Positions 12,025 to 27,163 of a stretch of 64,000 nt of DNA are shown here, in pieces. The notes under the pieces are model-generated. The model saw nothing but the letters and a program-made list of their open reading frames with translations, did not search any database and was not told the DNA's origin. The translations under genes and the position numbers were made by a program. How positions within the stretch are numbered: the stretch's first letter is position 1; each line of letters starts with the position of its first letter. The DNA comes from an archaeon (GTDB lineage Archaea; Nanobdellota; Nanobdellia; Pacearchaeales; GW2011-AR1): NCBI GenBank assembly GCA_018694115.1, contig JABHNB010000005.1, positions 64,374-128,373 on the forward strand, in the 5' to 3' direction.

Positions 12025-13296
12025 TTAAGGAGTCAATCTTTCTCGGTCCCTTGGAAACAAAACAGCTTCCCGAATATTGTCTAGTCCGAGCATTAGCATT
12101 GTAATTCTTTCTAGTCCAACTCCCCATCCGGCATGTGGCGGAGCTCCGAACCTAAATGAATCAATATAACTTTTGAAATCTTTTGGGTTTAGCTTATGTG
12201 CTTTTAATCTTTCTTCCAATAATTCTGGAATATGGATTCGCTGGCCGCCGGAAGAGATCTCCATCCCTTTCCATATTGCGTCAAAGCCCTTCGAATTTTC
12301 TCCATCAGGCATAATATAGAATGTTTTTCCAGCCAATGGCCATTCAGTTACAAATGTGATTGTGTTGGGGTATAATTCTTCAAGTTTCTTCTCAGCGTCT
12401 CCAGATAAGTCATGTGCTGGCATCTTAACCTTCTCCTTTTTCATTATTTCCTTTACTTCCGCGAACGTTATGTATTTCACTTTTGGTACTTCTAGTTTCG
12501 CCTTTAATGATTCTAATTCTTCAGGTCTTTCATCAATTACTTTTTTTACAATGAACTGCATGCACCTGCCCATTACCTCCATTACCTTCTTATCGTCAGC
12601 GAATGCCTCTTCATAGTCTAATTGTCTCGCCTCGTTCAAGTGCCTTGTAGTGTTATGTTTTTCTGCTCGCCATACAGTAAATATTGCAAAAACCTTCTCC
12701 ATAGAACACGCTAACATTTGTTTGTATAGTTGACAGCTCTGAGAAAGATATGCTTCCTTTTCAAAATATTTTGTCTTGAATAAATCTGTTCCACCTTCGG
12801 AGCTTGATCCAATTAATGCTGGGAACATTGCTTCGATTGCGTTTTCCTTAATCATAAAATCTCTATATCCTTGAAGGATAGTAGATTGGATTTTGAAAAT
12901 TGCTTGTGTTCTTGTAGAATGTAAATCCAAGAACCTATTATCTAGTCTTAGGGGCAATTCAGTTTTGGAATAATCTGAAGCATCAATTGGCAATGGATTT
13001 TTTGCCTCCGCAATCATTGTAATTGAGTCGGGTAATAGTTCTTTTCCGCCAGGGGCTTGAGAACTTTCCTGCAATTTCCCAATTACTTCTACAGCAGACT
13101 CTCTGTTTAAGTTATCCAATAATTCAAATATTTTGGGATCTGTTTTTCCATTAACGCCCGTTACCTGTATTCTCCCAGAAATATCTTTTAAAACTAGAAA
13201 TCTCACTTTCTTCAAATCTCTTGTATCATGGACCCATCCCTTTAGAAGAACTTTTCCTTCTTTTGCGAATGCCTCTTTGATCATTGTTCTTTCCAT
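12025..13296 (-). CDS. aspS: aspartyl-tRNA synthetase, probably non-discriminating
   Basis: A class II synthetase of archaeal size (423 residues) with an N-terminal OB fold and motif 2 containing WRAEKHNTTRHLNEA. Motif 3 is GVGLERITMLML. In Thermococcus AspRS, Trp26 and Lys85 restrict the enzyme to tRNA-Asp. Here the aligned residues are His23 (GWVHD) and Pro82 (SSQAPGG), the combination found in enzymes that also charge tRNA-Asn. Co-location with gatC and gatA fits that reading. TTTATAAATG lies 28 bases before the ATG. Alignment was done by eye from memory of the family. Confidence 0.95.
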   Translation of the reverse strand: MERTMIKEAFAKEGKVLLKGWVHDTRDLKKVRFLVLKDISGRIQVTGVNGKTDPKIFELLDNLNRESAVEVIGKLQESSQAPGGKELLPDSITMIAEAKNPLPIDASDYSKTELPLRLDNRFLDLHSTRTQAIFKIQSTILQGYRDFMIKENAIEAMFPALIGSSSEGGTDLFKTKYFEKEAYLSQSCQLYKQMLACSMEKVFAIFTVWRAEKHNTTRHLNEARQLDYEEAFADDKKVMEVMGRCMQFIVKKVIDERPEELESLKAKLEVPKVKYITFAEVKEIMKKEKVKMPAHDLSGDAEKKLEELYPNTITFVTEWPLAGKTFYIMPDGENSKGFDAIWKGMEISSGGQRIHIPELLEERLKAHKLNPKDFKSYIDSFRFGAPPHAGWGVGLERITMLMLGLDNIREAVLFPRDRERLTP

Positions 13297-18085: not shown

Positions 18086-19873
18086 TTACTTAATATATCC
18101 GCCTTTCTGAAGGTTCCACAGCTTCTTGTATTGTCCTCGCTGATTGATCAACTGTCTGTGAGTTCCCATCTGGACAATCTTACCCTTATCCATAACAACG
18201 ATCTTATCTGCTTTCATAATTGTAGATAAACGGTGAGCAATAATAATCGAAGTTCTACCTTGCATTAATCTTTCTAGGTCTTTCTGAATTTCCGCCTCAG
18301 TCTCAGAATCCAAAGCACTTGTCGCTTCATCCAGAACTAAGATCTTCTTATCCGCTAAGATCGCTCTAGCAATGCTAACTCTCTGCTTCTCTCCGCCAGA
18401 TAATTTAACTCCCCTCTCCCCAACAACAGTATTTTCTTTATCAGGGAAATTAGCCACAAGCTTGTCCAACTGGGCAAACTTCATAGCCTTCATAACATCC
18501 TCCTTGCTCGCAGAAGGATTAGAGAACCGAATGTTATTGAATATGGTATCATCAAATAGAATCGCCTCCTGAGGAACAATAGACATTTCACTCCTCAAAG
18601 ACTCTTGTTTAAAGTCCCGGATATCCTTCCCATCAATCTTAATAGCCCCACGATTAACATCATAGAATCTGTAAAGTAACTTAACCAATGAAGTCTTCCC
18701 ACATCCCGAATGTCCGACAAATGCCACTTTCCTATTCTTTCCAATTTTCAAGTTGAACTTATCGAATAATTTTCTCTTTCCATACTTGAATTCCATATCC
18801 TCGAACTCAATATCTCCTTTCCGAATTTTAAGGTTCTTAGCTCCAGGCTTATCCTTGATTCCATTTTCAATTTTATTGTACTGGAATAGAACTTCAAAGT
18901 CTGCCATAGCTCGATAATAATTTCTTATCCCATGAACAAACCCAAATAGGTGTCCAATTAGGGTCCCATAAACCATATAGATAAACGAAACAGTACCTAT
19001 CGTTATCTCTCCTGCAAGGAATTGCTTTATTGAAAAGTAAACTATAAGGAATGTTCCTGTTGAAAGAATCAAAGACTGTACAGCATCCATCCACCTGTAA
19101 TATCCCCAATTTTTGAGTAGTGCCTTTCTAGAATTTTCACTTAGCTTTTTGAAACGAGCCTTTATCGAGTTTTCCTTACCGAAGTATTTTATCGAATCAA
19201 TATTCGTAAAAATATCCGCAACATTTGCCTTTTCAATATCTTCTTCATTTATAGAATCAATACTTGCTCCTTCTTGAAGCCTCTGCATAAGGAAGCTATA
19301 GCCGATAAAAAGGACCATTGTTACAACTATTACGATTGCAGGGATAAGACTAAAATAAAGAAGTGATGCGAAAACGACAACTACTTGTAGGATCAATGGG
19401 GCAAAGTTGAACAAGATAACATCTGTTAACCTTTCTACCGCGCCCCCACTTCTAACAAGCCGAGAAATTAAACTTCCAGTCTTGTTTGTTGTATGAAAAT
19501 TATGATCTAGGTGGATAAGATGATTGAAGAATTTTCTCTTAATATCTGCCATAAGCCAAACATCAAGAGTATTAATTCCATGGAGCTTAAACCAAATCAA
19601 AATTGATTGAAAAATCGCCTTTATTGCGAAAACGGTAGCAACAATGATTAGGATAGCAATGAAGGATCCTGCAGCTAAAGTTCCAGCAGAAAATTCGGTT
19701 CCATTATCAATAATAACCTTAAACAGGAAAGGACTTACAAGTCGGATAGACTCTGTCATTAAAATTACTAGGATTATCCCAAAAGTCAAAAGCTTATACT
19801 TCTTCAAAAAACTCCAGTACAAATTAAGATTATACTTGAAGTCAATTTCTCTGGATCTCTTACGTTTTTCCAT
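18086..19873 (-). CDS. ABC exporter, fused permease-ATPase half-transporter
   Basis: A 595-residue protein with six membrane helices (about 30-330) and a nucleotide-binding domain. Walker A is GHSGCGKTS, the signature LSGGEKQR, Walker B ILVLDEATSALD, and the switch His is in IIAHRLSTI. It is of the lipid A/multidrug exporter type and works as a homodimer or with a partner. Substrate is unknown. TATATAAATA about 20-25 bases before the ATG is shared with a divergent promoter. It sits at the edge of a stretch rich in transport and resistance-like genes. Confidence 0.92.
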   Translation of the reverse strand: MEKRKRSREIDFKYNLNLYWSFLKKYKLLTFGIILVILMTESIRLVSPFLFKVIIDNGTEFSAGTLAAGSFIAILIIVATVFAIKAIFQSILIWFKLHGINTLDVWLMADIKRKFFNHLIHLDHNFHTTNKTGSLISRLVRSGGAVERLTDVILFNFAPLILQVVVVFASLLYFSLIPAIVIVVTMVLFIGYSFLMQRLQEGASIDSINEEDIEKANVADIFTNIDSIKYFGKENSIKARFKKLSENSRKALLKNWGYYRWMDAVQSLILSTGTFLIVYFSIKQFLAGEITIGTVSFIYMVYGTLIGHLFGFVHGIRNYYRAMADFEVLFQYNKIENGIKDKPGAKNLKIRKGDIEFEDMEFKYGKRKLFDKFNLKIGKNRKVAFVGHSGCGKTSLVKLLYRFYDVNRGAIKIDGKDIRDFKQESLRSEMSIVPQEAILFDDTIFNNIRFSNPSASKEDVMKAMKFAQLDKLVANFPDKENTVVGERGVKLSGGEKQRVSIARAILADKKILVLDEATSALDSETEAEIQKDLERLMQGRTSIIIAHRLSTIMKADKIVVMDKGKIVQMGTHRQLINQRGQYKKLWNLQKGGYIK

Positions 19874-19924
19874 GTTCAGTCTGTTTACTAATATTTATAT
19901 AGTTTAAGCACCCCATATTTCCAG

Positions 19925-20020
19925 ATGGTTAATGTGGACATAATCGAAGGCAAGCATCAACGCACATGTAAGGAATATGCAACTTACGACGATGAATATG
20001 CTGACGAATCGGGTGACTAA
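19925..20020 (+). CDS. possible 31-residue acidic peptide
   Basis: A short frame beginning MVNVDIIEGKHQRTCKEYAT and ending in acidic residues (DDEYADESGD). An ATTTATATAG box is 28 bases before the ATG, at the position used by leaderless genes here. The same palindromic box probably also serves the divergent ABC exporter, which weakens the case. No homologue is recognised. Confidence 0.3.
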   Translation: MVNVDIIEGKHQRTCKEYATYDDEYADESGD

Positions 20021-20054
20021 CTCTTTTATTAATTAGTGATTTTGCATATTTAAA

Positions 20055-21257
20055 TCATTCTGTGTGATTCTTTAGCCCGATTAAGAAGGCGATAGCAGTA
20101 AGAAATGCCAATCCCCCATTAACAAAGAGTGTATTTATCACCCCAATTGTCGAAATTCCAATACCTGTTAAAAACACACCGACTGAATGTGCAATCGCCC
20201 AATTGATGCTATTCAATGAACCCAGGGATGCCCGAATCTTAGAATCGAATTCATGATGCAAAGCAGAATCTTCGACAACATCTGTAGCCGCTAACACAAC
20301 AAGTAAAACTGCAAGAAAGACAATCGCCAAGATCAAGGAATTAAAGTAGGCCATTGAGATAATTGAAATCCCCATAATTCCAAAAAATATAACCAGGCCA
20401 GATTTGAATCCTCTATGATGGACTACTTTTCTACCAATTAAAGGGCCAACAATAGCAAGAATCCCCAGAACAGCATATAGTCCCGGAACATATTCTGGCC
20501 CTAAACCATAAACGATAGTAAGCAATAGTGGGGCACAAACGAAAAAAGCACTTATTGTGATCGTGCTTATAATGCCTCCCAACATCAAGGCCCTAAGTTC
20601 ACGATTATCTTTGTGGATCAAATAAACAAATGATTCTTTAGCTTTAATCAGGGACTTCACAAGATAATTATGTGGGACCTTGCTTGGCTTAAAGTTTCTC
20701 TCTTCCATATATCTCCAAGAGATAAAGAACAGAAACAAATAACTAAGTGCAATCAGCAACCAGATAAATCTAAAGTTGATAGCTACAATAATAAATCCAA
20801 TAAACCCTCCGATAACATGACCCGATTTCTCAAAAATAAAAGATTCCGAGATTAACTTAACAAGCTTAGACTTCTTCCTTGCATAACCTAATGCATCAAT
20901 CGCCCAAGCAAATTGTGCCCCAGAACTAAATGTCCAACCAATGTCCCCCAATATCCAAAAGAAAGCTAGAAACCAGAATTTAGTAAACAAAAAGATTCCA
21001 AGGAAGCTAACAAAAATCAAGAAGTAGGAAATCATCAAGGACTTTTTCCGTGAATCATAATCTGCAACTGCCCCGGTAGGAAACTCAAAGAATGTCATAA
21101 TCAATGTTGAAACTGCAAACAAGGTGGTAACTGCAACAACATTAAAACCTAGGGAAAGGAAGTAAATCAAGATCAGAGCAGAGACTAATGCTCGCCTCAT
21201 CCCATGAGTAAAGTCTATACCATAAACTAAGGATTTTACTTTCTTAGAAAATTTCAT
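20055..21257 (-). CDS. MFS transporter
   Basis: A 400-residue protein with about 12 membrane helices. It has the MFS loop 2-3 pattern as FEFPTGAVADYDSRKKSLMIS (Gly-x3-Asp-x3-Arg-Lys), typical of small-molecule effluxers. Substrate is unknown. The start has the ribosome site AGGTGATAAG directly before the ATG, the same 14-base leader found at the amino acid permease at 53.49 kb. It is divergent from the ABC-F gene. Confidence 0.85.
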   Translation of the reverse strand: MKFSKKVKSLVYGIDFTHGMRRALVSALILIYFLSLGFNVVAVTTLFAVSTLIMTFFEFPTGAVADYDSRKKSLMISYFLIFVSFLGIFLFTKFWFLAFFWILGDIGWTFSSGAQFAWAIDALGYARKKSKLVKLISESFIFEKSGHVIGGFIGFIIVAINFRFIWLLIALSYLFLFFISWRYMEERNFKPSKVPHNYLVKSLIKAKESFVYLIHKDNRELRALMLGGIISTITISAFFVCAPLLLTIVYGLGPEYVPGLYAVLGILAIVGPLIGRKVVHHRGFKSGLVIFFGIMGISIISMAYFNSLILAIVFLAVLLVVLAATDVVEDSALHHEFDSKIRASLGSLNSINWAIAHSVGVFLTGIGISTIGVINTLFVNGGLAFLTAIAFLIGLKNHTE

Positions 21258-21358
21258 CTTATCACCTATCCTTTCTTGGAGTTGTCCATTTAAATTACTT
21301 TCTTAGAGAAACTTAATATAATAGATAGTTTTTTAAATTGTAATACAACTAAATTAAT

Positions 21359-21433
21359 ATGGCAAGTAGAGAAAATAATACGCTAACAGGTACGTTCATG
21401 TTTAGCCGTGCTTGCCCTATTTTCTGTGCATAA
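21359..21433 (+). CDS. 24-residue leader peptide upstream of the ABC-F gene
   Basis: A complete small frame starting MASRENN and ending RACPIFCA, placed 24 bases before the ABC-F start. TTTTTTAAATTG about 25-30 bases upstream gives leaderless translation of this peptide first. Its bases 3-8 (GGCAAG) and its later codons (CTTGCCCTA) form alternative pairs with one another and with the ABC-F ribosome site. In bacteria such leaders let drug-stalled ribosomes switch on ABC-F resistance genes. Confidence 0.6.
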   Translation: MASRENNTLTGTFMFSRACPIFCA

Positions 21434-21457
21434 AGTCTTGTGCTTTAGGGGAGATCT
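21361..21457 (+). promoter_or_regulatory. translational attenuator of the ABC-F gene
   Basis: Three mutually competing pairings are visible: GGCAAG (21361-21366) with CTTGCC (21411-21416); CCCTA (21415-21419) with TAGGG (21446-21450), which covers the ribosome site GGGGAG (21448-21453); and TAAAG (21431-21435) with CTTTA (21443-21447), overlapping the leader stop codon. This is the layout of a ribosome-stalling switch. Confidence 0.5.
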
Positions 21458-23089
21458 ATGAAAAATTTACTAAATATTTCTGACGATACCATGATTTCTA
21501 TACAAAATTTATCAAAACGTTTTGAAAGAGACAATTTATTTGAGGGCATTAATTTAGTCCTTCATTCAAAGGAAAAAATCGCCTTTATTGGAAAGAATGG
21601 TTCTGGAAAAACAACCTTCTTCAATTGTTTAGCCGGTAAGGAAAGCTTTGATGGAAGAATCTTTGTTTCAGAGATAAAAATAAGTCTAATGGAGCAGGAG
21701 CAGAACTTTTCTAACCTAGACAAGACATTCGAGGAATATCTGGATGATAAGAACGAAAAGTTAGAAGGGCTAAAAAAACAATTGGAAGAGAAAATCGGAG
21801 ATCCTGAAGTTTATGAGAATGAGGATAAGTACAATTCCCTGATGGATGAATATAATCTTCTCTTAACAGATCCTTCCACAAATTCAGAACAAAGAAGCAC
21901 AAAAGAGATCCTCAAGGAACTGAAGATGGATAAGAAGCTTCTAAATCAAAAGATTAAGAATCTTAGCGGAGGACAAAAAACTAAGTTAAGGCTCGCAGAA
22001 TGTTTATCTAAAAAAGCAGACCTATATTTGTTAGACGAACCAACAAACAATCTAGATCTGACTACAAGAGAATGGCTTGAAGCATATATCAACAACAATA
22101 TAGAGAACTTAATTGTTATCTCACATGATCGATATTTCTTAAGCAAGGTAGTTGGAAAAGTATGGGATTTAGAAAATCAACAGATAATTTCATGGAACTA
22201 TCCCTTCGATGAATATCTTGATAGAAAGAAGAAACACTTGGCAGTCCTAGAAAGAAAATTCAAAGATGCAACAAAGAAGAAAAAGCAATTACTTGAGTCT
22301 GCAGCGGAAAAAAGACACTGGGCTGCAAAATGTGGGAATCGAACGAAGAAGGTAATTGCAGATAGGCTAGAAAGGCAAGCAAAAGAATTGGAAAATGTAG
22401 AAAATCCTTTTGACTTTATCAAAGATATCGATATCGGGTTTAATAGCAAGAACCTCCATAACTGTAACATCTTCAGGTTGGAAAATGTCGAAAAGAAATT
22501 TGATAAAGTCCTATTTGAAAATGTCGATCAAGAGATAGATTTTGGAGAGCGGATTTGTATTATTGGGGAAAATGGAACTGGAAAGTCCACCTTCTTGAAA
22601 ATGCTAATTGGAAAAATTCCCCAATCAAAGGGAGACTTGTATCGAAGAAAGGATGTTAAGATAGGCTATTTCGATCAGGAACTAGAAGAACTTGATAAGG
22701 AACAAACAATAATGAAATTCTTCATAAATGAGACAGACCTAGACGAAGAACATTTAATTCCCTTCCTTGAAAAGTATGGTTTTGAAAAAGAAAGTTTTCA
22801 GAAAAAGATAAAGCATCTTTCTGGAGGAGAAAAGGGAAGATTGAATATCTTGAGAATAGCCATTGAAAAGAACAATATCTTAGTGCTAGACGAACCAACA
22901 AATAACCTAGACATCTATTTAGTCGAATCTCTAGAAAACGCATTAAAGGAATTCAAGGGAACAATCATCTTCGTATCTCACGACAGATACTTCGTAGATA
23001 AAGTCGCAACAAGAATCCTAGAAATCAAAGATAAGAAAATATCAAGTTTCAAGGGAAATTATTCAAAGTATTTGGAATCTCGAAAGTGA
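21458..23089 (+). CDS. ABC-F family ATPase, ribosome-associated resistance-like
   Basis: A 543-residue protein with two ABC domains and no membrane helices. Walker A motifs are GKNGSGKTT and GENGTGKST. The signatures LSGGQKTK and LSGGEKGR and Walker B LLDEPTNNLD/VLDEPTNNLD are all intact. A charged linker lies between the domains (about 235-310). ABC-F proteins act on the ribosomal E site, and some protect against antibiotics. The GGGGAG ribosome site and leader peptide set it apart from leaderless neighbours. Adjacent MFS, ABC and APH-type genes fit a resistance island acquired from bacteria. Confidence 0.9.
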   Translation: MKNLLNISDDTMISIQNLSKRFERDNLFEGINLVLHSKEKIAFIGKNGSGKTTFFNCLAGKESFDGRIFVSEIKISLMEQEQNFSNLDKTFEEYLDDKNEKLEGLKKQLEEKIGDPEVYENEDKYNSLMDEYNLLLTDPSTNSEQRSTKEILKELKMDKKLLNQKIKNLSGGQKTKLRLAECLSKKADLYLLDEPTNNLDLTTREWLEAYINNNIENLIVISHDRYFLSKVVGKVWDLENQQIISWNYPFDEYLDRKKKHLAVLERKFKDATKKKKQLLESAAEKRHWAAKCGNRTKKVIADRLERQAKELENVENPFDFIKDIDIGFNSKNLHNCNIFRLENVEKKFDKVLFENVDQEIDFGERICIIGENGTGKSTFLKMLIGKIPQSKGDLYRRKDVKIGYFDQELEELDKEQTIMKFFINETDLDEEHLIPFLEKYGFEKESFQKKIKHLSGGEKGRLNILRIAIEKNNILVLDEPTNNLDIYLVESLENALKEFKGTIIFVSHDRYFVDKVATRILEIKDKKISSFKGNYSKYLESRK

Positions 23090-23095
23090 TTTTAT

Positions 23096-24301
23096 TTACT
23101 CACTTATTTCTTCTTCCTTAATCCGAGAATAGATAAAAATTACCAAAAACATCAAGGGGGCATAAATGAAAATTGTATACCTTGCCCCAATAACATCTAC
23201 TAAGTATCCTACGAGAGGCATCGCGACGATTCCGGCCAGGGATGCTATCATCGAATCAACACTTTTCATCGTAGCTCTCAATTTAGAAGGAACAAACCTA
23301 TGGAAATACATCTTTGACGCAGGCATTCCTAACATCATGAAAAATTGAACCGCAAGAAGAATAATTAATGCAGGAATCCACCTTTTCGGAAGTAAAATAA
23401 AAAACATAGTCAACGCAGAAAGAAAGAATCCAATCATAATAAATTTCTTCTCTTTCTTTTCCTTCAAAAATTTACTTGAAATAATCGGAGATGTCATCAT
23501 GATAACTGCTATCGCAGACCACATATATCCAAAGTAATGTGCCGGAAAATCAAGATCAAGTAAGAACGGCGTCCATGTCATGCTTATCCCAAAACTAAGG
23601 GCTACAACGAAAACAAATGTCGCCATAAGATAATAATAAAGAACGGGGTGCTTATATCCATAAGAAACAGTCTCCTTGGATTGCCTAAATAATCCCCTAA
23701 AGGATCTTCCGATCTTCACCTTTCTTTTAGCAAAATTCTCTTTCGCAAAAAGAAGTATTGAAACGGAAATCATAAACGAAAAAAATGCAAAAAGCCAGAT
23801 ACTTGACATGCCAAACCATTTAACTAAAAAAGCTCCCAATATCCCCGAGATAACTAGGGCAAACGCATCAATGCCTTGCGACTTATGGAAATAACTTCGA
23901 GATAGATTTTTCCCTTTTCCCTTAACAAGATCAATAACCCACGCCTCCTTACTCCCCGAGGAAAGCGTGCTCGCAAAACCTAAGGCTGCAAAAGCAGCTA
24001 ACAACAGATAATAATCTCTCACAAAAAACAAACTCAAGACAACCAATCCCTCAAGAGAAATCCCAAGCAAAACCGAGAATTTCCGGCCATACAAATCTGC
24101 AACGGCTCCTGTCGGAATTTCAAATATTAGCATAAACAAGGGCGTGACCGCAATCAATAAACCAATTTGAAAAAAACTTAACTCAAGTCCCGTAAGAAAA
24201 ACCACAATGAACGCCGGCAGGAAATACAGCAAGGGAGAAAGTAGCGCATCCAAGTAAAACGGCCATAATAATTTCAATTCGTTTTTCTGAAAGAATTTCA
24301 T
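23096..24301 (-). CDS. MFS transporter, last gene of the kinase operon
   Basis: A 401-residue, 12-helix protein with FEIPTGAVADLYGRKFSVLLG at the 2-3 loop (Gly-x3-Asp-x2-Gly-Arg-Lys). It is similar in type to the MFS at 20-21 kb, though not a near copy. Its ATG overlaps the upstream kinase-like gene by four bases (ATGA). It is therefore co-translated with three APH-fold genes and a MNT/HEPN pair, and probably exports a compound that the kinases modify. Substrate is unknown. Confidence 0.85.
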   Translation of the reverse strand: MKFFQKNELKLLWPFYLDALLSPLLYFLPAFIVVFLTGLELSFFQIGLLIAVTPLFMLIFEIPTGAVADLYGRKFSVLLGISLEGLVVLSLFFVRDYYLLLAAFAALGFASTLSSGSKEAWVIDLVKGKGKNLSRSYFHKSQGIDAFALVISGILGAFLVKWFGMSSIWLFAFFSFMISVSILLFAKENFAKRKVKIGRSFRGLFRQSKETVSYGYKHPVLYYYLMATFVFVVALSFGISMTWTPFLLDLDFPAHYFGYMWSAIAVIMMTSPIISSKFLKEKKEKKFIMIGFFLSALTMFFILLPKRWIPALIILLAVQFFMMLGMPASKMYFHRFVPSKLRATMKSVDSMIASLAGIVAMPLVGYLVDVIGARYTIFIYAPLMFLVIFIYSRIKEEEISE

Positions 24302-25278
24302 TTTATCTCCCGCAAAATTTTGCTTTTATTATTCCAATACCACTGGGCAGCTTCTGAGTAACGTTTGAATTTGGGGTTCTTCATACGTTTCTTATCGTTT
24401 ACAAATAACCAATACTGATACTCAAAATCTTCGATAAACCCTGCAGCAATTATGTCTGGGATCAATTGTAGTTCTATCTTCCTCAATTTCCGGTATTTCA
24501 TGTATTCCCTTAAAAAAAATCGGGCATTTTCAAAACTCAATCGGAGTTCATTATCTGAACAAGAATACTGTAAGATTATGCAGATATCCTTAACAAAAGC
24601 ATCATTTCCAAAAGCAACATTTTCAAAATCTAAAACTCCTGAGATTTTCCCGCGATGCCACAAAATATTATCCTGATGTAAATCCCTATGGATCGCATAT
24701 TTCTTCAACCGAGAATATTTCTTAACGTTCACCCCATTAAAAATCGGAATAAGTTTTTCAGTCTCATTCAAATAACTCCTCTCTTCCTTAGATAATTTTT
24801 TCAATTTACTAAGCTTTCGGATAAACTTCCCCATCTCATTAAGAACCTCCTTCTGTCCCAAATCATTAATATCCTTCCCGCTACTTCGCAATTTCAATTT
24901 TTCTAAAATGTTATGGTGCTCTGAAACCATCTTAGCAACTTCTCTTAATTCCCGCTTTTTGAATTCCTTTTTTATCTTTCCCTCAATAAAATTATCTAAC
25001 CAAAAATATTTCTTATTGACCTTCACTAAAAATTTATTCTTTATCGTTGATATGGGATTTGGTGTGGGATATTTAAAACCGCTTGCCTGCAATTTTTTTA
25101 GATAATCAATCTCAAACTTAAGATCAGAAGTTTTTCTATTCATTAAAAATTTTCTCAAGAAATATTTACCCTTATCTGTCTCAACAAACCAGTTATAGTT
25201 GACTACCCCTTCTTCTGAGAGTTTTATCTTCTTAATCTTGCCAATACCCCAATTCTTTAGAACTTTTTCAGGTTTCAT
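24298..25278 (-). CDS. APH-fold small-molecule kinase 1
   Basis: A 326-residue protein of the aminoglycoside phosphotransferase/homoserine kinase II superfamily. The catalytic loop reads HRDLHQDNILW (Asp base, Asn metal ligand), followed by GVLDFENVAFG with the Mg-binding Asp. The N-lobe has YFLRKFL with the ATP Lys candidate. Substrate may be an antibiotic, amino acid or sugar. It is third of three adjacent kinases, each joined by ATGA overlaps. Basic residues are abundant. Confidence 0.8.
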   Translation of the reverse strand: MKPEKVLKNWGIGKIKKIKLSEEGVVNYNWFVETDKGKYFLRKFLMNRKTSDLKFEIDYLKKLQASGFKYPTPNPISTIKNKFLVKVNKKYFWLDNFIEGKIKKEFKKRELREVAKMVSEHHNILEKLKLRSSGKDINDLGQKEVLNEMGKFIRKLSKLKKLSKEERSYLNETEKLIPIFNGVNVKKYSRLKKYAIHRDLHQDNILWHRGKISGVLDFENVAFGNDAFVKDICIILQYSCSDNELRLSFENARFFLREYMKYRKLRKIELQLIPDIIAAGFIEDFEYQYWLFVNDKKRMKNPKFKRYSEAAQWYWNNKSKILREIK

Positions 25279-26213
25279 TTTATCTCCCTCAACAAACCCT
25301 TAACCCTCTCGGAGCTTGATTTCAAATAAAGGTATTGTTTATGCTTTGATTTTTTCAGTTCTGAATAAAACCACCAAAAAACAACACAACTATCTCGGAT
25401 AATAAATGGAAGAATCATGGCTATTTCTTTTTTAGACAGGGGATTAATCTTTTGATATTCTCTAAGTAGGTTTTTCATTTTTGATTTGCTTAACTTGGAT
25501 TTATTAAAACAATATTGTTTTACTGCGTAGGCAATATCTCTAACTCTCGGAGAAACAATTACACTTTCAAAATCCAAAATCCCAACCACTTCATTTCCAT
25601 CAAAAAGTAAATTACCTTGATGGAAATCTGTGTGATTAGCTAGGAGTCCCGTCTCCAGATTAATTGATACATCCTTTAAACAATCCTTGAAGAGATCAAT
25701 ATTTTCTAACATTATTCTATCAACTTTATTTTTTGGTTTAACCTTCTCCATAACTGAATATTTCTTCATTAACCAAATATAGTCTTCCTTCAACCTTCGG
25801 GCATTCATGCTCGAAACATATTTATGGTATACTGCTAGGGCTTTCACCAAACTCTTGAGTTGAGCCCCGTTAATTTTGGACACCTTCTTGCCCTTAATCC
25901 TTTCATAAATCCATAAATTCCTACCCTTAACGGTCGTTAAAACCTGTCCTTTCTTATTCTTAATTGGATCCGGAATTCGATAAGGAAATTTTTTCTTCTT
26001 AAGGTAATTGAGGACCCGGAACTCTAATTTTAACTTTCGTTTCTTGTAATCGTCTAGTTTTCTGCCGAGGAATCTAAATACATAGTCCCCTCCGTCAGTT
26101 TTAACATTAAAGTTATAATTTACCAGTCCCCCTCCAATCGAACTTATCTTCTTAACCTTCCCCAAATCATATAATTTCGTAGCTCTTTCGACTTCTTGCT
26201 TTGTTATCTTCAT
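25275..26213 (-). CDS. APH-fold small-molecule kinase 2
   Basis: A 312-residue kinase of the same superfamily. The catalytic loop is HTDFHQGNLLF and the metal loop GILDFESVIVSP. The first strand GGLVNYNFNVKTDGGDYVFRFLG resembles the nucleotide loop of homoserine kinase II/SrkA-like enzymes. It overlaps both neighbours by four bases. Similarity to kinase 1 in layout suggests ancient tandem duplication, with diverged substrate sites. Confidence 0.8.
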   Translation of the reverse strand: MKITKQEVERATKLYDLGKVKKISSIGGGLVNYNFNVKTDGGDYVFRFLGRKLDDYKKRKLKLEFRVLNYLKKKKFPYRIPDPIKNKKGQVLTTVKGRNLWIYERIKGKKVSKINGAQLKSLVKALAVYHKYVSSMNARRLKEDYIWLMKKYSVMEKVKPKNKVDRIMLENIDLFKDCLKDVSINLETGLLANHTDFHQGNLLFDGNEVVGILDFESVIVSPRVRDIAYAVKQYCFNKSKLSKSKMKNLLREYQKINPLSKKEIAMILPFIIRDSCVVFWWFYSELKKSKHKQYLYLKSSSERVKGLLREIK

Positions 26214-27163
26214 CCCAACCCCTCCGAAAACTCCTCCGCCAAAGTCTCACAAAACATTTCATACTTTCGTATCCACTTCTTGACAGCCTTTCTAAGTCTT
26301 TTCTCCATATCTGAATGTTTCTTCAACTGAGAAACATGCCAACCAATAATCCCCTGAAATCGATGCTTGATAAAAAAGTAGATCGCTTCCCTTTCACTAG
26401 GATTGAGCTTGAAGTATTTCTCAAAACCTTTCAAATAAAGTTTAATCTTCCCATAATCTACTCTCCCTTTCCAATCAATAAAACTCATCGTGATAAAATT
26501 GGATATTTCTTGAACAACAAAATCTTCATGGGCATCATCTAAATCTATGATCGCATTCAACTTCTGGTTTTTAACTAGGAGGTTGCCTCGATTAAAATCT
26601 CCGTGAACAACACTTCTCCGAAGTTTTTTCTTATTTATCTGCTTCAACTCTTCTCTCAATTTTTTATTCTCTTTAAGTATCTCAAATCCTTCATGACGAA
26701 TAACATCAAACATCAATGGTTTAAACTGATAGTCTTTCTTCCAGGTATGTTTTCCTTCCAATCCCATTTTCATCAATGCCCTATTCAACCTTCCGTGCTT
26801 CTCCGCAATATCCTCAATTAACTTTCTCGTAAATCTCTTTGCCGGTTTCCCTTCTACAAATTTTTGAATAACAATCTTCTTTTTATTGAAAATCAAAAGT
26901 GGCCCATCATTACACATCATCACCCGCGGACTAGGGAGTTTTTCTTTCTCCATTAATTGCATAATCTTCAATTGAAATTCAATGAAATCCTTTTTCGCGT
27001 TCTCAAATATCTTTAGAATGAATTTCCCCCTAGTCGTCTTCAAAAGATAGACAGTATTCCCCAATGCCCACGGAAGATGCTTATGAGATTTATGTTCACC
27101 AATTTTGTAATTCTCGAGAATCTCTTCAAAATCCTTATTCTGGAGTTTAGTTAATATTGCCAT
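26210..27163 (-). CDS. APH-fold small-molecule kinase 3
   Basis: A 317-residue member of the superfamily. The catalytic loop is VVHGDFNRGNLL and the metal loop AIIDLDDAHEDF, with DLDD instead of DFE. The N-lobe has FILKIFENAKKDF with the ATP Lys. It starts three bases after the HEPN-type gene and overlaps kinase 2 by ATGA. It is the most diverged of the three and may have a different role. Confidence 0.78.
   Translation of the reverse strand: MAILTKLQNKDFEEILENYKIGEHKSHKHLPWALGNTVYLLKTTRGKFILKIFENAKKDFIEFQLKIMQLMEKEKLPSPRVMMCNDGPLLIFNKKKIVIQKFVEGKPAKRFTRKLIEDIAEKHGRLNRALMKMGLEGKHTWKKDYQFKPLMFDVIRHEGFEILKENKKLREELKQINKKKLRRSVVHGDFNRGNLLVKNQKLNAIIDLDDAHEDFVVQEISNFITMSFIDWKGRVDYGKIKLYLKGFEKYFKLNPSEREAIYFFIKHRFQGIIGWHVSQLKKHSDMEKRLRKAVKKWIRKYEMFCETLAEEFSEGLG

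Follow-up and report, generated by a model that had tools for sequence, protein, structure and literature searches.

The question raised by this locus is whether a short open reading frame lying directly 5' of an archaeal ABC-F gene serves as a leader through which ribosomes control the translation of that gene. Leader–ribosome control is used by bacterial ABC-F genes (PMC9226507, PMC10201436), and ABC-F proteins have been reported as absent from almost all archaea, with only four archaeal genomes carrying them, all of the YdiF type (PMC6723617). The locus resides in a 64,000-nucleotide stretch of DNA, referred to here as the window, from a DPANN archaeon whose genome is ~0.9 Mb in 16 contigs and carries an archaeal 16S rRNA. 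On balance, and with a moderate degree of confidence, comparison with related loci favors a translational attenuator of the ABC-F gene in DPANN archaea that would open when a ribosome occupies the leader end.

The ABC-F gene occupies 21,458–23,089 on the plus strand and encodes an ATPase of 543 amino acids with two intact nucleotide-binding domains, assigned by the NCBIfam model NF000355 and by its ABC-F fold. The protein has two ABC domains per chain, Walker A motifs, an LSGGQ-type signature, and DEPTN motifs, and it has no transmembrane domain. Its score against NF000355 (ribosomal-protection-like) is 412.6 bits, above the curated cutoff of 380 that defines an ARE-ABCF here; the cutoffs of the named ARE subfamilies (Msr, Vga, Lsa, Sal, OptrA, and CplR) are all missed. 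The top PDB sequence match is VmlR (6ha8), and the nearest named ABC-F loci belong to Pacearchaeota and Nanoarchaeota MAGs. In a fold search, ARE proteins and the housekeeping ABC-Fs EttA, YbiT, and Uup score about equally, so the search cannot separate a resistance role from a housekeeping one and was rejected for that purpose. By its sequence, the protein is a ribosome-protection-like ABC-F with a putative resistance role. The GGGGAG ribosome site named in an earlier note on this DNA is a Shine–Dalgarno (SD)-like element (21,448–21,453, plus strand) that lies 4 nt 5' of the ABC-F ATG at 21,458; an anti-SD is present in the host because its 16S rRNA ends in GGATCACCTCCT.

Upstream of the gene, the 24-codon ATG frame with a leaderless start described in the earlier note is confirmed at 21,359–21,433 (plus strand), encoding MASRENNTLTGTFMFSRACPIFCA* (the asterisk denoting the stop), and a TATA box, TTTTAAA (21,331–21,337, plus strand), begins at −28 from its ATG. 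A TATA box at −28 to −30 from the leader ATG is common to eight of the nine loci that carry the leader, and many of the window's other first genes are preceded by TATA-like boxes at the same distance. Because the box sits 28–30 nt before its ATG, the leader is very probably the first, leaderless cistron, its start being placed by the position of the promoter.

ABC-F relatives were gathered from whole genomes and named contigs, and a leader of 23–25 codons, with a second start 24–27 nt past its stop, is found in nine independent DPANN loci (the window, L031, L032, L065, L002, L003, L004, L069, and L074). The frame is thereby present in the close homologues, from which its absence had been named as grounds for giving up the idea. 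The spacer from leader stop to second start is 24 nt in the window (21,434–21,457, plus strand); the second start is an ATG, with a CTG/TTG context in L069, and in all nine loci it lies 30–33 nt from a ribosome placed on the last leader codon. A blind rule that uses no sequence identity (an ATG frame of 20–28 codons with an ATG 20–30 nt past its stop, near the ABC-F core), the ranges of which were fixed after the nine loci had been seen, recovers the layout in 7 of 17 archaeal homologues versus 0.41 expected from shuffles, and more than six loci were reached in none of 200,000 simulations. The short upstream frame, its spacing, and its promoter are thus conserved in homologues, as would be expected of a leader-peptide attenuator, translation of the leader itself being predicted.

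Three pairings had been proposed for this region, and all of them can be drawn in the window: GGCAAG (21,361–21,366) with CTTGCC (21,411–21,416), CCCTA (21,415–21,419) with TAGGG (21,446–21,450), and GCATAA (21,428–21,433) with TTGTGC (21,438–21,443). The leader RNA of the window alone folds no better than shuffled sequence (z −0.15; second run z 0.08), and the folding check that had been suggested for the region yields no stable two-state fold (z about 0), which was rejected for the window alone; the case rests on comparison for this reason. The alignments do not bear out the masking of GGGGAG by CCCTA, as the CCCTA:TAGGG pairing is absent from relatives. The stem between GGCAAG and CTTGCC persists in close relatives, where it shows a compensatory change, but the competing-mask logic attached to it is not conserved; the relatives share a different mask, in which the last leader codon and stop pair with the second start. 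The proposal of a bacterial-style ABC-F attenuator thus survives in its outline, a conserved leader frame with an SD-masking structure, but not in the exact CCCTA/GGCAAG hairpin logic.

The retained stem, Hairpin A (21,361–21,416, plus strand), joins the leader start GGCAAGTA (21,361–21,368) to TGCTTGCC (21,409–21,416), and GGCAAG:CTTGCC becomes GACAAG:CTTGTC in L032 and L065. The leader bodies, as a set, are more stable than shuffles. Swapping the arms of Hairpin A between species gives p values of 0.004–0.25, depending on the set, with few both-side changes, and no match to the leader element was found in Rfam.

The mask shared by the relatives, Hairpin B (21,428–21,463, plus strand), sets the last leader codon and stop, GCATAA, against the second start and draws the SD purines into an inner stem. 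RNAalifold, applied to eight leaders, selects two helices, one pairing GCAU[A/G] of the last codon and stop with [U]AUGC at the second start and the other forming, inside it, a UCCC/GGGA-type hairpin that covers the SD; the leader end in the outer helix is GCAUAA or GCAUGA, and its partner is UAUGC. For the region spanning the last three leader codons through the first 9 nt of the second frame, which was picked after the folds had been seen, the Stouffer z is −4.9 over the nine leader loci versus +1.2 in seven homologues without the leader, and the signal is stable to most region bounds and weaker once 24 nt of leader are included. The z-scores are −2.89, −1.69, −1.75, −2.91, −2.90, −0.59, and −1.87 in seven of the loci, −0.72 in the window, and +0.49 in L074. 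Sequestration of the SD and start is therefore a property of the set: the relatives have a strong hairpin, that of the window, with ATGAAA in place of ATGCAA, is weak, and L074 lacks it although the leader frame is there. Swapping its arms between species produces no significant weakening (p 0.04–0.28; few both-side changes). A covariance model built without L004 and L069 recovers L004 as its best outside match (E 0.008) and misses L069, and a model from all eight leaders gives no further match to the element across 219 kb. Hairpin B, as modeled, is likely real but weak in the window itself, and the alignments support a conserved mask in which the second start codon is paired to the leader end and stop, together with a CCC/GGG hairpin over the SD.

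The second start of the window opens an N-terminal extension, MKNLLNISDDT (21,458–21,490, plus strand), of which residues 1–7 are predicted to be disordered; an 11-residue extension of this kind is fused in frame to the ABC-F in the window, L031, L032, L065, and L002. In L003 (MQNHLNFYFTI*), L004 (MQNFLKF*), L069, and L074 (MNTKIVRQ*), the second start opens a separate short frame with its own stop at or before the ABC-F start, through an ATGA-type overlap in L003 and 2 nt before the ABC-F ATG in L074. As the second start is kept even as a separate mini-ORF, the controlled start is conserved even where it is not the start of the ABC-F. Readthrough from leader into ABC-F is excluded because the relative frame varies: the two are in frame in the window (99 nt apart), but distances of 75+26, 72+26, and 78+25 nt elsewhere are out of frame.

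The leader peptide shows dN below dS in close relatives, mostly in its C-terminal half, with dN/dS of 0.5–0.8 among the four closest loci (the window clade) and, for the last 12 codons of the window and L032, pN 0.10 and pS 0.84. Outside this close group peptide identity drops to 13–24%, and an arrest motif common to the leaders can therefore not be seen. Ala, Ala-Gly, or Ala-Leu closes most of the peptides, usually with GCA as the last codon; since this codon is also a pairing partner of the second start region, the ending need not be a peptide signal. A match of the leader C-termini to known drug-context rules was considered and rejected, as Ala, Gly, and Leu endings agree with no single rule. 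The C-termini are Cys-rich in several leaders.

Translational attenuators of the erm type, such as the ermC and ermB leaders, comprise two hairpins, one in the leader body and one masking the SD and start of the resistance gene. The archaeal element shares this two-hairpin layout, but it has no conserved 2:3 alternative pairing, its relief is predicted at the leader stop and not mid-leader, and its promoter and start are archaeal. In a simulation in which a ribosome was parked at every leader codon and the cost of opening the SD and start was computed, a mid-leader ribosome barely alters this cost, or raises it, in most loci; with that absence of relief, and with CCCTA:TAGGG not conserved, the mutually exclusive pairing of erm leaders is not found here. 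Wherever the fold exists, a ribosome whose P site is at the last sense codon brings the cost to its lowest value, or to within 0.1–0.3 kcal/mol of it, with drops from 4.7 to 2.4 kcal/mol in the window, from 14.1 to 6.6 in L032, from 9.2 to 3.8 in L065, from 5.6 to 0.5 in L002, and from 8.4 to 1.2 in L003. As the cost is lowest or nearly so at the last codon, where the ribosome is 30–33 nt away from the second start, an arrest at the end of the leader is favored over an erm-like mid-leader switch. Neither opening cost nor relief differs significantly from shuffled leaders (Stouffer about 1), and enrichment over shuffles was dropped as support.

In the proposed mechanism, transcription would begin at or beside the leader ATG, and ribosomes would read the 23–25 codon leader from its leaderless start. 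When the leader is empty or has already been passed, its last codons and stop would fold onto the second start and SD as the predicted Hairpin B, which would hold ABC-F expression low. A ribosome halted so that its P site contains the final sense codon would melt the 5' arm of Hairpin B and, standing about one ribosome length 5' of the second start, would leave just enough room at the SD and start for another ribosome. The likely trigger would be an inhibitor at or near the peptidyl-transferase center that slows the last leader steps, so that the ABC-F would be made when ribosomes are in trouble; in the relatives with a second mini-ORF, the passage to the ABC-F start would add a coupling step. 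It is reasonable to infer that the leader senses ribosomes or drugs, the trigger of the switch being either drug stalling or plain coupling.

Coupling without any sensing is the main rival: ribosomes finishing the leader would open the hairpin and reinitiate or aid a new ribosome, and the leader would only set the level of ABC-F. The mini-ORF relays of L003 and L074, with their overlapping or closely adjoining stops, look coupling-like, and the leader peptide is poorly conserved outside close relatives; the gap of 24–27 nt is nevertheless long for reinitiation, and the constant 30–33 nt spacing, together with C-terminal purifying selection in the close group, better suits a parked ribosome, which leaves coupling alone unlikely but deserving of serious attention. 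Control at the level of transcription, with Hairpin A followed by CTATTTTC acting as a U-rich terminator relieved by leader translation, would agree with the transcription attenuation usual for bacterial ABC-F leaders (PMC9226507, PMC10201436) and with the short T tract 3' of Hairpin A in the window and L031/L032. This reading is improbable, since the tract has only four consecutive T, is interrupted in L065, and the conserved signal is located at the SD and start.

A small functional peptide acting in trans, with the hairpin incidental, would account for dN below dS in the close group and for the Cys-rich C-termini of several members, but the sequence is not conserved family-wide, and the fixed spacing and shared hairpin tied to the next start point to action in cis, so that this explanation is quite improbable. 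The least probable account is a chance frame with chance pairings; the poor folding of the window RNA agrees with it, and comparison largely refutes it through the recurrence of the layout well above shuffled expectation, the placement of the TATA box, and the cross-species z of the hairpin.

The leader appears to travel with its gene. ABC-F identity to the window is 74–77% in other genera (G151, G162, and G163) and 56–57% in its own genus (G001 and G004), the reverse of the proteasome subunit, for which the values are 48–51% and 70–74%; AspRS was rejected as a species marker because it is patchy, and the proteasome subunit was used instead. As leader relationships track the ABC-F in alignment while gene neighborhoods differ between loci, it appears that promoter, leader, and gene were transferred as one unit among archaeal genera. 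On the ABC-F tree the leader has a scattered distribution, and several members that keep the ABC-F lack it (L066, L067, L070, and L076–L078), which suggests repeated loss or replacement. L066, the closest leader-less relative (minus strand), retains a frame of just 9 codons, MQSYFVAIK*, which overlaps the start of the ABC-F and is preceded by a TATA-like TTTAAA, and L073, the sister of L004 (minus strand), carries a different 14-codon leaderless frame, MKSIYLPLRLAHPF*, upstream of the ABC-F with an AGGAGG SD, possibly a replaced leader. A recent import of the ABC-F from bacteria, which the earlier note had entertained, is unlikely because the best bacterial matches in the plasmid collection are about 35% identical, and the family includes a separate DPANN-specific clade with archaeal promoters; no copies were found in viral contigs. 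A fuller and more tentative reading, to which we give somewhat less than an even chance, is a drug- or stress-responsive attenuator of archaeal origin, in which a ribosome stalled about one ribosome length upstream on a leaderless mRNA would unmask the start of a horizontally moving ABC-F gene, with a second mini-ORF relay in some lineages.

Among bacterial systems, the vmlR and cplR leaders combine 3-codon uORFs, terminators, and SD-masking hairpins, and bacterial ABC-F uORFs are of 3–4 codons (MIN in VmlR, MRI in CplR, and MAGN in LsaA) (PMC9226507, PMC10201436). A uORF 5' of the ABC-F gene, an ABC-F SD within a hairpin, and relief by a ribosome on the uORF (here predicted) are shared with vmlR and cplR, which differ in the shortness of their uORFs and in also controlling an intrinsic terminator; the archaeal leader has 23–25 codons, is leaderless, and stops roughly a ribosome's length short of the next start, with no terminator identified. 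In Methanosarcina mazei, Ribo-seq places 10% of unannotated small ORFs in 5'UTRs, likewise 5' of longer archaeal genes, but these are not linked there with stalled ribosomes, a masked SD, or a gene of the resistance type (PMC11456600). No archaeal leader-peptide or stalling attenuator was found in the library searched, which covers a minority of subscription papers, and the control logic, known for bacterial antibiotic-resistance genes, is as far as we found undescribed in archaea. If the reading is correct, DPANN archaea would possess a mobile gene for ribosome protection that brings along a switch of its own for sensing ribosomes, and would by implication encounter ribosome inhibitors in their natural surroundings; the leader element would offer a short, testable system in which to study how ribosomes stall on leaderless archaeal mRNAs and how the SD is unmasked there.

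The surroundings of the gene (18,086–27,163) hold an MsbA-like ABC exporter, two MFS transporters with weak similarity to tetracycline efflux proteins, and three consecutive APH-fold kinases, possibly a drug-export and drug-modification cluster, the APH fold covering metabolic kinases too. The region upstream of the divergent MFS gene (20,055–21,257, minus strand), at ~21,258–21,300, holds a short frame, MDNSKKG*, and an AGGTGAT SD. Elsewhere in the window, an AspRS-type gene (12,025–13,296) shows 61% identity in three genomes from other genera and about 30% in two from the same genus.
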